From NCBI RefSeq assembly GCF_024385465.1, contig NZ_JANFLS010000001.1:992001-1056000 (forward strand): DNA of 64,000 nt, in the 5' to 3' direction. The position numbers were made by a program, and so were the translations under genes. The stretch comes from Arthrobacter sp. zg-Y844. Lineage in GTDB: Bacteria > Actinomycetota > Actinomycetes > Actinomycetales > Micrococcaceae. Shown here in pieces: positions 29,340 through 33,988 of this stretch. The notes under the pieces were generated by a model. The model was not told where the DNA came from, did not search any database, and saw only the letters and a program-made list of their open reading frames with translations. Position 1 is the stretch's first letter; the number at the start of each line of letters is the position of its first letter.

Positions 29340-29897
29340 TTGAGCACCACCATCCTGACCCTCGTCGGCAGCCTCCGCGCCGGTTCCATCAACCGCCAGC
29401 TCGCTGAAGCCGCAGCCGCCGGCGCTCCGGAAGGCGTCGAGGTGAAGCTCTTCGAGGGGTTGGGCGAAATTCCGTTCTACAACGAGGACATTGATGTGGA
29501 GGGGCTCGTCCCGGAGGCAGCACAGGTACTGCGCGACGCCGCCGCTGCGTCCGACGGCCTGCTGCTGATCAGCCCCGAGTACAACGGCACCATGCCTGCA
29601 GTGCTGAAGAACGCCATTGACTGGCTGTCCCGCCCCTTCGGCGCCGGTGCCATCTCCGGTATGCCCACCGCCGTCATCGGTGCCGCCTTCGGCCAGTACG
29701 GCGGCGTTTGGGCACAGGACGATGCACGCAAGTCGGTCGGTATCGCCGGCGCCCGCGTAGTCGAGGAAGTGCGCCTGGCCATCGGCGGATCCGTAACGCG
29801 TTACGCCGGACTGCACCCGCAGGATGACCCGGACACCGTGGCCCAGCTCGGCGAGGCCGTCCGCGTTCTCGCTGAGGCGTCTGTCTCCGTAGCCTAG
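29340..29897 (+). CDS. NADPH-dependent FMN reductase (azoreductase/quinone reductase-like)
   Basis: 185 aa flavodoxin-like fold. LTLVGSLRAGSINRQLAEAA opens the protein with the FMN phosphate loop, and SPEYNGTMPAVLKNAIDWLS is the family signature near residue 80. Such enzymes reduce quinones, azo dyes, chromate or free FMN. The start is TTG 29340 with AGGAG about 9 nt upstream; nothing upstream resembles the family. The divergent TetR gene and the palindrome between them suggest induction by a toxic aromatic or quinone. Confidence 0.88.
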   Translation: MSTTILTLVGSLRAGSINRQLAEAAAAGAPEGVEVKLFEGLGEIPFYNEDIDVEGLVPEAAQVLRDAAAASDGLLLISPEYNGTMPAVLKNAIDWLSRPFGAGAISGMPTAVIGAAFGQYGGVWAQDDARKSVGIAGARVVEEVRLAIGGSVTRYAGLHPQDDPDTVAQLGEAVRVLAEASVSVA

Positions 29898-29913
29898 GCA
29901 AAACAGACAGAAA

Positions 29914-29945
29914 AGAGGGACGGACCGTCACGGGTCCGTCCCTCT
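29914..29945. terminator. hairpin terminator between FMN reductase and the SpaB_C locus
   Basis: A perfect 13-bp stem (29914-29926 with 29933-29945) with a 6-nt loop separates the convergent reductase and 62-aa genes. It has A-rich and T-rich flanks on opposite sides and could stop transcription from both directions. Confidence 0.8.
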
Positions 29946-29963
29946 TCTGCGTTCGGCGTCCTG

Positions 29964-30152
29964 CTAGTACCAGACCTCGTCCGCCCAGGCCGCGTCCCTT
30001 AGGTATTCACGCGCCGGACCAACATTCCAGGCTTCGCCGTAGGGCGCCAGGACTCCGCTGTTCTTCAGATCCGCCAGGACGTCTTCCGAGCAACCGAGGA
30101 CCGAGCCGAGTTCCTGCGCGTCCGCTACCACTACTTCTTCATGATCGGCCAC
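29964..30152 (-). CDS. 62-aa protein of unknown function paired with a SpaB_C-like protein
   Basis: I do not recognise a family. The protein is acidic at the N-terminus (VADHEEVVVADAQEL), has one cysteine in LGCSED, and ends in an aromatic-rich tail (EAWNVGP, then AAWADEVWY). The start is GTG 30152 with AAGGGGG about 8 nt upstream, a strong site. It lies 31 bp after the SpaB_C-like gene on the same strand and is followed by a terminator, so the two form one short operon. It could be a precursor or scaffold peptide with an aromatic C-terminus, or a small partner subunit. There is no Ser/Thr/Cys-rich core as in a classical lanthipeptide. Confidence 0.7.
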   Translation of the reverse strand: MADHEEVVVADAQELGSVLGCSEDVLADLKNSGVLAPYGEAWNVGPAREYLRDAAWADEVWY

Positions 30153-30183
30153 CGGATGGGCCCCCTTCCCATTGTGCGCAGGT

Positions 30184-31143
30184 TCAGCGCTTATCGAGCA
30201 GAACTGATTCCCGTTCCGGACTCCAGGTCCGTGCGTACAATCCCATGGCCGCTTCCTCGCGGAGGCTCAGGCCCAGGCGGTTCAGGAGCATGTGCGCCTG
30301 GTAGACCGTCAGGTGCTGGGCGCTACGGCTCAGCCGAGCCTTGTCCGCCCGATACAAATACGTGTCAATGCCCCGGAACCAGCGCCGCCGCCAGTTTTCG
30401 ACGGCGGATTCGGCTGCCGTCGCTGCCATTAGCCGGTGGGTGGGCATGACCTTCGCGCCCACCTGGACCGTCATGGCCTGCCGCACACCGGCGGCCCGCG
30501 GGCCGAACCCTGCCGTGCAGCTGCGCAGGTGGCTGTCCCAGTAATAGTCCCAGGAAAGGCGTCGCCGGTCCGGCCACGCTGATGCCCGGGGTCCTTTCAT
30601 CATGCTCCGGGCCGCATCGAACAGCAGGAGCGATCCCAGTGCCCAGCGGTTCTGGACCTTGGGGAAGCGTGCGGTCGCCCAGCTCGCCAGATCGGAAGAG
30701 AGCTCGAAAACCTCTTCGGCGAGGGAAAGTCCTTCCACACCGCCGTATTTCGCGAGGTCTGCTTCAATGCGCGGGTCCTGCGGCTCGCCGCCACCCGGGC
30801 TGAGCCGGTCCGTTGCCGGCTCACTGAACTGCTGGCTGGTTTCGAGGTGGCCGATGACACCGCTGGACTGGTCCTGCAGGGCCACCATCAGCGACTGCAG
30901 CCGGTCCAGCGTGCTTGTAGGTGCGAGCACCCGGAGTTTTACATGTGCGTTGGCCGGATCCGAGCACCGCGTGAAATACCAGCGCTGCGCGCCCAGGAGC
31001 TGGGCCTGAGCCGCCAGCGGGGTAACCAGTTCTCCGATGATGCCGTCCGCTACATCAAAGCCCCCGGTATGAATGGAGAGCGACCACCAATGAGTGCCCG
31101 GTTGCGTCCGTGAGGCTGGTCGAACTGCAGCTAGCTGGCTCAT
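30184..31143 (-). CDS. stand-alone thiopeptide-type/lantibiotic dehydratase C-terminal (SpaB_C-like) protein
   Basis: 319 aa. It matches the pattern of the SpaB_C/thiopeptide-type bacteriocin domain: WWSLSIHTGG, then WYFTRCSDPANAHVKLRVLA near residue 55-75, the YGG element in LAKYGGVEGLSLAEEVFELS near 133, and the terminal VYQAHMLLNRLGLSLREEAA stretch. In class I lanthipeptide dehydratases this domain eliminates glutamate from glutamylated Ser/Thr; in thiopeptides a related enzyme makes the pyridine ring. Here it stands alone: no glutamylation (LanB N) domain, cyclase, transporter or protease is nearby. The start is ATG 31143 with GGGGAAAG 7 nt upstream. Substrate and reaction are unknown. 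The 62-aa gene and the 7-codon ORF are the local peptide candidates. Confidence 0.8.
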   Translation of the reverse strand: MSQLAAVRPASRTQPGTHWWSLSIHTGGFDVADGIIGELVTPLAAQAQLLGAQRWYFTRCSDPANAHVKLRVLAPTSTLDRLQSLMVALQDQSSGVIGHLETSQQFSEPATDRLSPGGGEPQDPRIEADLAKYGGVEGLSLAEEVFELSSDLASWATARFPKVQNRWALGSLLLFDAARSMMKGPRASAWPDRRRLSWDYYWDSHLRSCTAGFGPRAAGVRQAMTVQVGAKVMPTHRLMAATAAESAVENWRRRWFRGIDTYLYRADKARLSRSAQHLTVYQAHMLLNRLGLSLREEAAMGLYARTWSPERESVLLDKR

Positions 31144-31620
31144 ATGCGTCTTTCCCCTCGGGGTGCGGTTACCGCCACTGGGCGGCCTTTCAGTGTTCTA
31201 GTGTTCGAGTTACTTGTCTATGGCCCCTTGGGGGCCTCAGTTAGAACCAATCCCAGCTCTTCATGATTGCTATCCCCCTTGGGTCTTGGGCTGTTGCTCA
31301 GCCGGCGCCTTGATTGACTCCGAAAGCTTCCCCCGCCGCTGCACGGCCTGTAAATAGCCTCCGCTGCCCGGTTCCTGACATGTCCGGATGTGGACCCTCG
31401 GGGTTCCTTATCCCGGTTGCAGCCGGGACGGAAAGCCCCATGGCCTGAGGTTTTCCGCGGCAGGAACTTTGCACCGCCGCCGTTGGCATTAACCGGCCAT
31501 GTCCTGCATTCCAAAGTGTGTTGCGGTCACAAAACACTTTTGTCACATGCGGCCCGGAAACCGGGCCCGCTGGGTAGGGTAGCTGTGGGGGCTACAGCTG
31601 ATGCTTTGAAAGGATTCGCC
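31144..31620. other. 477-bp divergent region between the SpaB_C-like and LuxR-type genes
   Basis: It holds the micro-ORF at 31241-31264 and several small palindromes. GGCCCC-TTG-GGGGCC at 31222-31236 is a hairpin just after the micro-ORF on the minus strand. AAAGTGT (31513-31519) and ACACTTT (31534-31540) form an inverted repeat with a 14-nt spacer, well placed for an operator between the divergent genes. GGCCCGG-AAA-CCGGGCC (31551-31567) is a hairpin before TAGGGT (31575-31580), a possible -10 for the regulator. An 82-codon frame at 31298-31546 (minus) has no support. Confidence 0.5.
31241..31264 (-). CDS. 7-codon micro-ORF MKSWDWF upstream of the SpaB_C-like gene
   Basis: ATG AAG AGC TGG GAT TGG TTC TAA on the minus strand encodes MKSWDWF. 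A strong ribosome site AAGGGGG lies 9 nt upstream of the ATG. A GGCCCC hairpin follows 4 nt after the stop, and the SpaB_C-like gene starts about 100 nt downstream. The W-x-W-F end and good translation signal make it either a leader peptide for attenuation or a tiny substrate peptide, as known for the five-residue biarylitide precursors. Such short ORFs arise often by chance, so this is only a candidate. Confidence 0.4.
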   Translation of the reverse strand: MKSWDWF

Positions 31621-32589
31621 GTGCTGTCTCAGGTTTCGCTCGACGTCTACCGCTTTGCCGTGAGCCGTCCGGGGTGGACGGCGAAGGAGGCTTCCGAGGC
31701 CTTGGGGTACACCAGCAAGGTAATCGACGGCGCCATCTCCGAACTGACCGCAAGCTGCCTCCTGCTGCAGCAGGGCGCGGACTGCCCGAGCTACACGGCG
31801 GTTTCTCCTGATGTTGCCCTCGCGGAACTGGTGGATCCGGACGAACGGACCCTGCTGGAACTGCGCGGAAGAATCAGCACCCGCCGGCGGGAAATGGCGG
31901 CATTGACCCCGGCCTATGTCGAGGCACGCAAGCGCCTGGCCGCCGATTCCTCGGTGGAGGTGGTCGAGGACCAGGAGAAAGTCCAGCGGGTACTGATCGA
32001 GTACGGGCGCAGCGCCACCGACCGTGTGCTGATCGCCCGTCCGGGACAGGGTGCCAACGCAGACATCCATGAGGAAAGCGTGCAGAAGGACCTGGATCTC
32101 CTGCGCAGCGGCGTCCGCCGGCAAACGCTGTATCACGCAAGCACGCGGGACCATGTGCCCACCCGCAAAGCCGTGGAAGTTATTACCCAAGCAGGAGGGC
32201 AGTTCCGCACCCTTCCCTACATGCCGCTGAGAACACTGATCTTCGATGACAAAGTGGCGGTGGTGGCCCGCGATCTGCACCCCGGCGACGTTGCCGGGCT
32301 GGTAGTGCGGGATACCAACCTGATCCGTATCTTCGGGTTGCTCTTCGAGTTTGCGTGGGGCTTGGCGGAGCCGTTCCTGATTGACGACCCCGGCAGGGAG
32401 GGCCTCACCAGCACCCAGCGGTCCGTCCTCACGGCGCTGGCGGCCGGTTATTCGGATGAGGCCATTGCCCGACGGGTTGGCATCAGTGTGCGGACCTGCC
32501 GCCGCCACATCGCCTGGATGCTGGAGGAGCTGGGTGCGGAGAGCCGGTTCCAGGCCGGGATCAAGGCCCACAAGGCCGGCTGGATCTAA
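31621..32589 (+). CDS. TrmB-like/LuxR-type helix-turn-helix regulator
   Basis: 322 aa. The N-terminal winged helix (FAVSRPGWTAKEASEALGYT, then SKVIDGAISELTASCLLLQQ) is TrmB-like. A middle domain of about 150 residues resembles the phospholipase-D-like ligand region of TrmB regulators. The C-terminal LuxR HTH is LTSTQRSVLTALAAGYSDEA, IARRVGISVRTCRRHIAWML. The start is GTG 31621 with AAAGG 8 nt upstream. It is divergent from the SpaB_C-like gene and is its likely regulator. Regulators with this TrmB-LuxR layout are frequent beside actinobacterial peptide and secondary-metabolite loci. Confidence 0.85.
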   Translation: MLSQVSLDVYRFAVSRPGWTAKEASEALGYTSKVIDGAISELTASCLLLQQGADCPSYTAVSPDVALAELVDPDERTLLELRGRISTRRREMAALTPAYVEARKRLAADSSVEVVEDQEKVQRVLIEYGRSATDRVLIARPGQGANADIHEESVQKDLDLLRSGVRRQTLYHASTRDHVPTRKAVEVITQAGGQFRTLPYMPLRTLIFDDKVAVVARDLHPGDVAGLVVRDTNLIRIFGLLFEFAWGLAEPFLIDDPGREGLTSTQRSVLTALAAGYSDEAIARRVGISVRTCRRHIAWMLEELGAESRFQAGIKAHKAGWI

Positions 32590-32683
32590 GGCTCCACCGG
32601 TTGATCGGGTTCAGCCGGACCCGGAGTGCCCGGCATTGGTGTACTAAACAGCCGTTGCCTGACGGTCAACTATTGGGGTTAGC

Positions 32684-33988
32684 ATGGGTGGCATGACCCG
32701 CGAGGAATTCTCCGATGCCGTAGAACTGCCCGTTGACACCATGGCCGCTTTGGAACGCGCCGCCGGCTCCCATCGCCACGAGGTGCTGTTCTCCAACCGT
32801 GCCTTCCACATCAAGCAGTCCGCGGTACGGGATGTCTTCGACATTTCCATCCGTCCGGGCCTGATTTCCCTGGCAGGCGGGAGTCCCTATCTGCGTTCGC
32901 TCCCCCTGGAAGACCTCGGCCGGACCGCCCAGCGCATTATTGCGGAACATGGGCTGGAGGCGCTGCAGTACGGCGGCGGGCAGGGGATGGAAGAGCTGCG
33001 CACGCAGGCATGCGAGGTCATGGCTGCGGAGGGCATCCTCGACGCCGATCCGGCCGACATCGTCATCACCACCGGCTCGCAGTCCGCGCAGGATGTCGCA
33101 GCCAAGGTCTTCTGCGATCCGGGAGACGTCATCCTCTGCGAGGATCCCACGTACGTAGGGGCACTGAATGCCTTCGAGGCCTACGAGGTGGATGTACGCA
33201 CCGTCCCGATGGACGACGGCGGCCTCGTCCCGGAGGCACTCGAGCAGCGGATCCGCGAGGTTCGCGCCGAAGGCAAAACCATCAAGCTGCTCTATACGAT
33301 CCCGAGCTTCAACAATCCCAGCGGCGTCACCCTGACCGCCGACCGCCGGCAGGCGGTAGTGGAAATCTGCCGGCGGAACAACATCCTGATCCTGGAGGAC
33401 AACCCCTACGGCCTCCTCCGGTTCGACGGCGAACCCCTGGCCCCGATGCGTGCAGGGAACGCCCAGGACGTGCTGTACCTGGGCTCGTTCTCCAAGATCT
33501 TCGCCCCCGGAGTCCGGCTCGGCTGGGCACTGGTCCCCCGCCACCTTTACCGGCGGTTCTACCTCGCCTGCGAGGCCGTGGTCCTCTGCCCCTCGCCTTT
33601 GACCCAGATGCTGGTCTCCGCGTACCTGCGCGAGTACGACTGGATGGGCCATGTACGCAGCTCCCGCAGCCTCTACGCCGAGCGGTGCTCCGCGATGCTG
33701 GACGCCTTGGACGAACACATGCCCGAGGGTGTCACGTGGACCCGGCCGGACGGCGGGTTCTTCATCTGGGTGACGCTGCCCGAGGGTGTGGACACCTATC
33801 CCCTGCTCTATGAAGCGATCGACGCCGGGACAGTCTTCATCCCGGGCGCGGCGTTCACGCCCGGCGAGGGCCCCTCCAACAAGCTGCGGCTGGCCTTCAG
33901 TGCCGTCTCCTCCGAAGACATAGCCGAGGGTGTGCGCCGGCTGGCACCGATCCTGAGTGCCGCCGTCGGCGAAGTAAGGGTCCGCTGA
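32684..33988 (+). CDS. PLP-dependent aminotransferase, 2-aminoadipate/LysN-like (fold type I)
   Basis: 434 aa. It belongs to the aminotransferase I group with LysN-like features: LISLAGGSPYLRSLPLEDLG, LQYGGGQGMEELR, YTIPSFNNPSGVTLTADRR, and the PLP lysine in LGSFSKIFAPGVRLGW near residue 270. There is no N-terminal GntR domain, unlike MocR proteins. ATG 32684 and ATG 32693 are both possible; the short distance to upstream elements suggests a leaderless or near-leaderless start. It is next to the 2-oxo acid dehydrogenase operon (convergent), so it may produce 2-oxo acids for it. Confidence 0.85.
   Translation: MGGMTREEFSDAVELPVDTMAALERAAGSHRHEVLFSNRAFHIKQSAVRDVFDISIRPGLISLAGGSPYLRSLPLEDLGRTAQRIIAEHGLEALQYGGGQGMEELRTQACEVMAAEGILDADPADIVITTGSQSAQDVAAKVFCDPGDVILCEDPTYVGALNAFEAYEVDVRTVPMDDGGLVPEALEQRIREVRAEGKTIKLLYTIPSFNNPSGVTLTADRRQAVVEICRRNNILILEDNPYGLLRFDGEPLAPMRAGNAQDVLYLGSFSKIFAPGVRLGWALVPRHLYRRFYLACEAVVLCPSPLTQMLVSAYLREYDWMGHVRSSRSLYAERCSAMLDALDEHMPEGVTWTRPDGGFFIWVTLPEGVDTYPLLYEAIDAGTVFIPGAAFTPGEGPSNKLRLAFSAVSSEDIAEGVRRLAPILSAAVGEVRVR

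Follow-up and report, generated by a model that had tools for sequence, protein, structure and literature searches.

The subject of this report is a small operon in a stretch of 64,000 nucleotides (nt) from Arthrobacter sp. zg-Y844 (contig NZ_JANFLS010000001.1, positions 992,001 to 1,056,000), which is referred to here as the window. The operon encodes a stand-alone protein with the elimination domain of LanB enzymes (SpaB_C) and an acidic protein of 62 amino acids (aa). Upstream of both lies a micro open reading frame (micro-ORF) for a candidate peptide of seven residues, and a divergent regulator gene faces the operon. An original prediction made from the letters of the window had described the SpaB_C-like protein, the 62-aa gene and the regulator. 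The micro-ORF was absent from it and was found by comparison. Coordinates are collected in Table 1.

Table 1. Features of the operon and its immediate surroundings, in window coordinates.
Feature	Position	Strand	Basis
Stand-alone LanB elimination-domain (SpaB_C/PF14028) protein P0001, 319 aa	30184..31143	-	Profile, structure-model and residue comparisons
Gene for 62-aa acidic protein, near-invariant tail Y-x-R-D-A-A-W-A-x-x-x-W-x	29964..30152	-	Alignment, family search, ratio of nonsynonymous to synonymous substitution rates (dN/dS)
Micro-ORF MKSWDWF, 7 aa, unannotated, candidate peptide or precursor	31241..31264	-	Comparison of intergenic regions
97-nt spacer with GC-rich hairpins, micro-ORF to SpaB_C gene	31144..31240	-	Single-sequence folds
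Terminator-like stem-loop 3' of operon	29911..29948	-	Count no higher than in shuffles
Putative operator-like site A, conserved, TGACATGTCCGGATGTGGACC	31376..31396		Alignment of 18/62 intergenic regions; 20 listed
Putative operator-like site B, conserved, TGGCATTAACCGGCCATGTCC	31484..31504		Intergenic alignment and pattern search
Divergent LuxR-type regulator P0003, 322 aa	31621..32589	+	Profile match, relatives

The region between the SpaB_C gene and the regulator is 463-737 nt long in 62 loci, which yielded 53 distinct sequences. Alignment of 18 of the 62 regions identified an ORF on the SpaB_C strand that ends in W[DE]W. In the window this ORF follows the sequence AAGGGGG and its stop codon lies 97 nt before the SpaB_C start; across loci the distance is 76-121 nt. 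A W[DE]W micro-ORF was present at 43/43 GTDB loci and at 23/24 fetched family loci with the 62-aa gene, two sets that overlap in genomes (9 identical intergenic pairs). Such an ORF was found in 61/62 regions, compared with 18/12,400 dinucleotide shuffles and 0/62 opposite strands, the motif having been chosen for this control after 18 of the 62 regions had been seen. The residue between the two tryptophans is D or E in 61/62 regions, and the W[DE]W core contains no conserved Ser, Thr or Cys. Among 18 SpaB_C places without an observed 62-aa gene, none has the motif; at L073, which is one of the 18, the contig stops within SpaB_C and covers nothing downstream of it. Looser candidates, GIYDWPTVA at L070 and RIWAWPESWPILGRK at L073, may be due to chance.

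The length of the micro-ORF product varies widely. Leaderless forms have 7-17 aa, and one at L088 has 33 aa with three repeats. Long forms have 44-93 aa (the longest, of 93 aa, is at L046), with an apparent Sec signal and 1-6 copies of W[DE]W. The window heptapeptide is without a signal peptide, while many relatives have an apparent one; all signal peptides were judged by eye. The 46-aa form is under purifying selection, with a median dN/dS of 0.19, a maximum of 0.62 and a value of 0.15 for the core (15/62 regions, 103 pairs kept). In the window micro-ORF, close relatives differ by a synonymous GAT/GAC change.

The stand-alone SpaB_C-like protein of the original prediction was borne out. P0001 matched PF14028 (Lant_dehydr_C) with 70.5 bits against a cut-off of 24.4, over profile positions 1-248 of 255. 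It passed TIGR03891 (thiopep_ocin) marginally, with 49.2 bits against 48.45. An AlphaFold2 model (mean predicted local distance difference test score, pLDDT, 89) gave 21 PDB matches at E<=0.001. All 21 were LanB proteins (MadB, MibB, NisB), pyridine synthases or aza-cyclases (TbtD, PbtD), or TsrL; the modelled fold resembles that of LanB elimination domains and [4+2] cyclases. The dN/dS of the gene is 0.02-0.04 versus five close relatives (some dS >1).

Residues of the elimination reaction were then compared between 14 operon SpaB_C proteins and 16 hand-picked canonical ones. L057 was omitted from the alignments for an in-frame stop, and L083 and L094 were omitted from alignment A2, the L083 translation at the coordinates used containing stops. 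The elimination residues of MadB are given as Arg822, Arg864 and His1005 in the text excerpted from PMC12241602. The portion of the SapT work used here describes two arginines that bind the glutamyl carboxylate, plus a His base and an activating Arg (PMC9011353). Arg822 corresponds to R71 of P0001 and Arg864 to K132, and His1005 was assigned to H284 solely through the HMxxNRL motif. In the Arg822 column, R occurs in 9/14 operon proteins versus 16/16 canonical proteins. The Arg864 column is K or R in 13/14 operon proteins (K 7, R 6, T 1) versus 16/16 (R 10, K 6). The YxxE tyrosine is present in 1/14 versus 16/16, its Glu in 5/14 versus 16/16, and the presumed base His in 12/14 versus 16/16. Both HxRxR arginines are present in 2/14 operon proteins. 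The N, R and L of HMxxNRL and E297 are present in all 14. By this comparison, the known elimination-reaction residues of the domain are eroded in the operon proteins. The presumed base His is replaced by Gln in L060 and L063, which are sister rows in the tree, and L063 has a WGW peptide. This pairing is a lead; two related cases prove nothing.

The LanB glutamylation half (PF04738) was detected in 0/26 genomes with the 62-aa gene. The same search was positive in 2/30 genomes searched (G005 and G022), and PF04738 was present in 17/18 other, hand-chosen SpaB_C genomes. Two SpaB_C homologues, at L071 and L072, adjoin LanB N-half genes.

The 62-aa gene begins 31 nt past the SpaB_C stop, directly after the 319-aa gene as the original prediction had it, with a GTG start and GGAAGGGGG upstream. 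Its product was found at E<=0.01 in 26/149 family genomes. It is under purifying selection (dN/dS 0.03-0.10 versus five close relatives, some with saturated dS). An alignment of 24 rows has 9 invariant columns, 7 of which lie within the last 13 residues. The tail has no conserved Ser, Thr or Cys. The protein is acidic, with an isoelectric point (pI) of 4.1-4.6 in 24/24 members, while SpaB_C is basic, with a pI >9 in 13/14 operon proteins. Such a pair would suit a complex; most SpaB_C paralogues without the 62-aa gene are basic too.

No Pfam or NCBIfam match was found for the window 62-aa protein at E<=1. Among 24 members, the lowest Pfam E-values were 0.014 (LT-IIB) and 0.044 (NfeD), both of which were taken as chance. 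PHROGs gave a family of no assigned function at 0.014, then excisionases at 0.039 and 0.051. The AlphaFold model is poor (pLDDT 60), and its best Foldseek E-value was 1.2. Several of the weak matches are to DNA-binding folds, yet the protein is strongly acidic. A helix-turn-helix protein was considered, but is not supported by any significant match (HTH_17, E 0.21, in one member). A 47-aa ORF 3' of the SpaB_C gene at L072 (L072:7762-7905, +) contains NWAEAMWPTG, which recalls the WADxxW tail of the 62-aa protein; it lies in a split-LanB cluster with an M50-like protein. From its sequence it could possibly represent an ancestral precursor.

A P0001 homologue was detected in 31/149 family genomes at E<=0.001, and the regulator in 31/149 at E<=1e-20. 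Both are present in each of the 26 genomes that encode the 62-aa protein. In G080 and G146 the regulator is ~9 kb away from SpaB_C. A scan of genome contigs with the 62-aa alignment yielded 43 loci; the record titles give Arthrobacter for 41 of them, an uncultured Micrococcaceae bacterium for one and Vibrio cholerae for one. SpaB_C and the 62-aa gene are present at 43/43 of these loci and the regulator at 40/43 in the stretch compared. A neighbourhood survey had been named in the original prediction as a way of refuting it; homologues do co-occur with the small protein and the regulator, and the survey did not refute it. Judged from these searches, the set is bound to one lineage, Arthrobacter and its close kin. 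The locus titled Vibrio cholerae strain 35D (L104, WNZI01000025.1) is of Arthrobacter type and most likely reflects assembly contamination. Beyond the family, a search for more distant SpaB_C proteins at E<=1e-10 added a single genome among 297 from the order (G170) and a single one among 396 from the phylum (G525). The G170 protein, at L164, occurs in a genome without a detectable PF04738 gene.

Three more stand-alone SpaB_C homologues occur in the genome of the window (G000:C1:916651-917565, 934039-934953 and 1065151-1066092), with 45-65% identity to P0001. The paralogues nest among the operon SpaB_C proteins in a tree in which 12/27 inner branches are well supported. At 14 paralogue places no micro-ORF was conserved. 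At L070 a SpaB_C homologue occurs in the same gene neighbourhood with an uncertain micro-ORF candidate and no 62-aa gene. Paralogues L036, L038, L054 and L057 are followed by a gene conserved between genomes, presumably a GAF-ANTAR regulator, and are without micro-ORF and 62-aa gene. The paralogue at L057 is interrupted by a single in-frame TAG, and at L053 the SpaB_C gene is split over two frames; these are broken copies or assembly errors.

P0003 matched GerE/LuxR and has a LuxR-type C-terminus. The original prediction had called it a TrmB/LuxR regulator; the LuxR part stands, while no TrmB model matched at E<=1. A longer ORF start at 31390 is probably not used, since relatives align from the GTG at 31621. 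The regulator dN/dS is 0.05-0.09 versus five close relatives (some dS >1). SpaB_C was found beside other members of the regulator family in 3/33 stretches scanned (G067, G022 and G008), and that scan gave one chance-like WDW ORF, in L239. The site B pattern was searched in 6 hand-chosen genomes out of the 26 with the 62-aa gene. It had one perfect match per genome, always at this locus (6/6), and matches with two mismatches were at control level.

The terminator that had been predicted to bound the operon is visible as a 16-pair stem followed by T's on the minus strand, the sole such site in 29850-32720. It is not above chance by count alone, because shuffles of this region average 2.2 such sites. 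No sigma-70-type promoter was found in a scan of the same region. The genes that flank the operon recur at most of the 43 GTDB loci; we take one flank to encode an alanine dehydrogenase and the opposite flank aminotransferase and keto-acid dehydrogenase proteins. The gene at window 29340-29897 (+), presumably for an NAD(P)H-dependent FMN reductase, ends against the operon terminator. Together with a TetR-like gene, it joins the operon at some loci only.

Our best explanation, which is held tentatively and at a little under an even chance, is a peptide operon: SpaB_C, a likely tailoring enzyme, would have the W-[D/E]-W peptide as its client, the 62-aa protein would be a partner and the divergent regulator would serve the locus. 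The order of the operon is micro-peptide, SpaB_C protein, 62-aa protein. Many relatives would synthesise the peptide in precursor form, with an apparent Sec signal and often W[DE]WP repeats, while the clade of the window would make a bare heptapeptide. SpaB_C would be a cytosolic enzyme that has retained its fold, the NRL residues and mostly the His, and has lost glutamyl recognition. It may act on the aromatic-acidic motif, for example by alpha-carbon epimerisation or aspartyl rearrangement, before the peptide signals. The tail of the 62-aa protein contains a W-A-D-x-x-W of its own; this protein may mimic the peptide or bind to the enzyme. We lean slightly towards a tailoring role, given that the fold, NRL and mostly the His persist and that the candidate precursor gene precedes the enzyme gene. 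Precursor then enzyme is the order of many RiPP (ribosomally synthesised and post-translationally modified peptide) operons.

Gene order, conservation, selection, residue loss and the failure to detect a LanB N half are direct observations; the client role of the peptide, its modification, the chemistry, the part played by the 62-aa protein and signalling are inferred. Several points weigh against this explanation. Sec export of the precursors would be awkward for a cytosolic enzyme. Linkage to SpaB_C is as close for the 62-aa gene as for the micro-ORF. Among the 14 operon proteins, 2 have Gln in place of the presumed base His and 5 lack R in the Arg822 column. L063, the exception to the W[DE]W motif, has a WGW form in the same place. 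The three SpaB_C homologues in the same genome are without such a peptide, and the flanks compared contain no conserved transporter or protease.

A broader formulation is possible but doubtful: that in Arthrobacter a LanB elimination domain, once a glutamyl lyase, now serves a new W-[D/E]-W signal as its maturase or receptor. A bare heptapeptide gene or a gene for an exported precursor of up to six repeats would encode the signal, beside a 62-aa protein whose W-A-D-x-x-W tail resembles it. A seven-residue gene illustrates how such peptides go unannotated, and it would offer a starting point for studying peptide signalling in this genus.

The receptor role is a close rival to the tailoring role, because many of the precursors have the look of Sec-exported proteins and the active site is eroded, although on balance we consider it unlikely. 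SpaB_C would then be non-enzymatic, and its old substrate groove would bind a re-imported or internal W[DE]W peptide and act through the 62-aa protein or the regulator. The position of W[DE]W at or near the C-terminus of many precursors with an apparent Sec signal is consistent with this, as are the eroded elimination residues, the mostly conserved gene neighbourhood and the pairing of an acidic 62-aa protein (24/24) with a basic SpaB_C. However, every known relative matched in the fold search is an enzyme, NRL and E297 do not vary, and the peptide-less paralogues are mostly basic too.

The original prediction had also suggested a reduced RiPP-type or signalling system, which is probably correct, and a small partner peptide on which the SpaB_C-like protein may act. 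In that arrangement the 62-aa protein would be the substrate, its WADxxWx tail the core and the micro-ORF secondary. The tail is indeed the most conserved part of the protein, and the 62-aa gene always occurs with SpaB_C (26/26). However, L070 has a SpaB_C homologue without the 62-aa gene, the tail lacks a conserved Ser, Thr or Cys, and the micro-ORF has a precursor form. The 62-aa protein is less supported as main substrate because the smaller, precursor-like gene upstream of SpaB_C fits better, and we regard this arrangement as improbable.

The micro-ORF could instead be a Trp-rich leader that couples SpaB_C expression to charged tRNA-Trp, its peptide being functionless. Every form has at least two Trp codons near each other, and the ORF lies a short distance before the gene with GC hairpins between, as seen in single-sequence folds of the 53 distinct spacers. 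Conserved RNA structure of the spacer is not shown, since covariation is slight (in one clade of 12, 2/21 pairs, term +0.4). Apparent signal peptides, up to six repeats and a conserved acidic residue between the tryptophans are not expected of an attenuator. No terminator-like site was found between micro-ORF and SpaB_C gene (31144-31240), and no Rfam leader was found at the locus at E<=1, where just two spurious miRNA matches occurred at the terminator. Attenuation is therefore very unlikely.

Ordinary lanthipeptide or thiopeptide chemistry is unlikely because no LanB glutamylation half was found, the elimination residues are not maintained and a conserved Ser/Thr/Cys core is missing from both small products. 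The search for the glutamylation half also gave no dehydratase N half of the kind expected in a thiopeptide system. An ordinary split LanB lyase with its glutamylation partner encoded elsewhere or missed was rejected as scarcely credible: PF14028 is matched above cut-off and the L071 and L072 homologues adjoin N-half genes, but PF04738 is missing from 26 genomes by a search that works in G005, G022 and 17/18 others, and the elimination residues are eroded.

Among the matches listed, no description of this locus was found in the open-licence literature. The thiopeptide [4+2] cyclases TbtD and PbtD, which join two dehydroalanines, are like P0001 stand-alone proteins of ~300 aa with the same fold. 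The peptides here are without conserved Ser or Cys. Gram-positive signals of the Phr and SHP types are the short C-terminal peptides of small, often exported precursors encoded beside a partner protein and a regulator. The locus differs from these in that the partner has a LanB-type fold, the peptide is repeated and no known receptor family is shown. Since the tested features of the nearest classes were not found here, the locus is filed under no known RiPP class, though it may still work like one.

The nearest split system is SptBb, the LanB lyase of SapT. According to the portion of PMC9011353 used here, it is likewise a PF14028 protein alone, from actinobacteria and near a small peptide gene. 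Its partners are a cyclase and a glutamylation protein, and it has both glutamate-binding arginines (PMC9011353), whereas here no PF04738 was found and both HxRxR arginines are present in 2/14 proteins. PEARLs (peptide aminoacyl-tRNA ligases) are likewise cut-down members of the LanB family with a small peptide as their target, but they have kept the other LanB half and, according to the excerpted text of PMC11212132, do not co-occur with PF14028. Stand-alone elimination domains in class I lanthipeptide clusters are suspected of a non-elimination role, as described in the extract of PMC7268733; they accompany a full LanB (PMC7268733), and none was found here. That survey of lanthipeptide clusters considers whether stand-alone elimination domains might catalyse another reaction, and this locus is a minimal natural case in which the question becomes directly testable: no glutamylation half was found, no dehydratable residue is conserved and the candidate client is short enough to synthesise.

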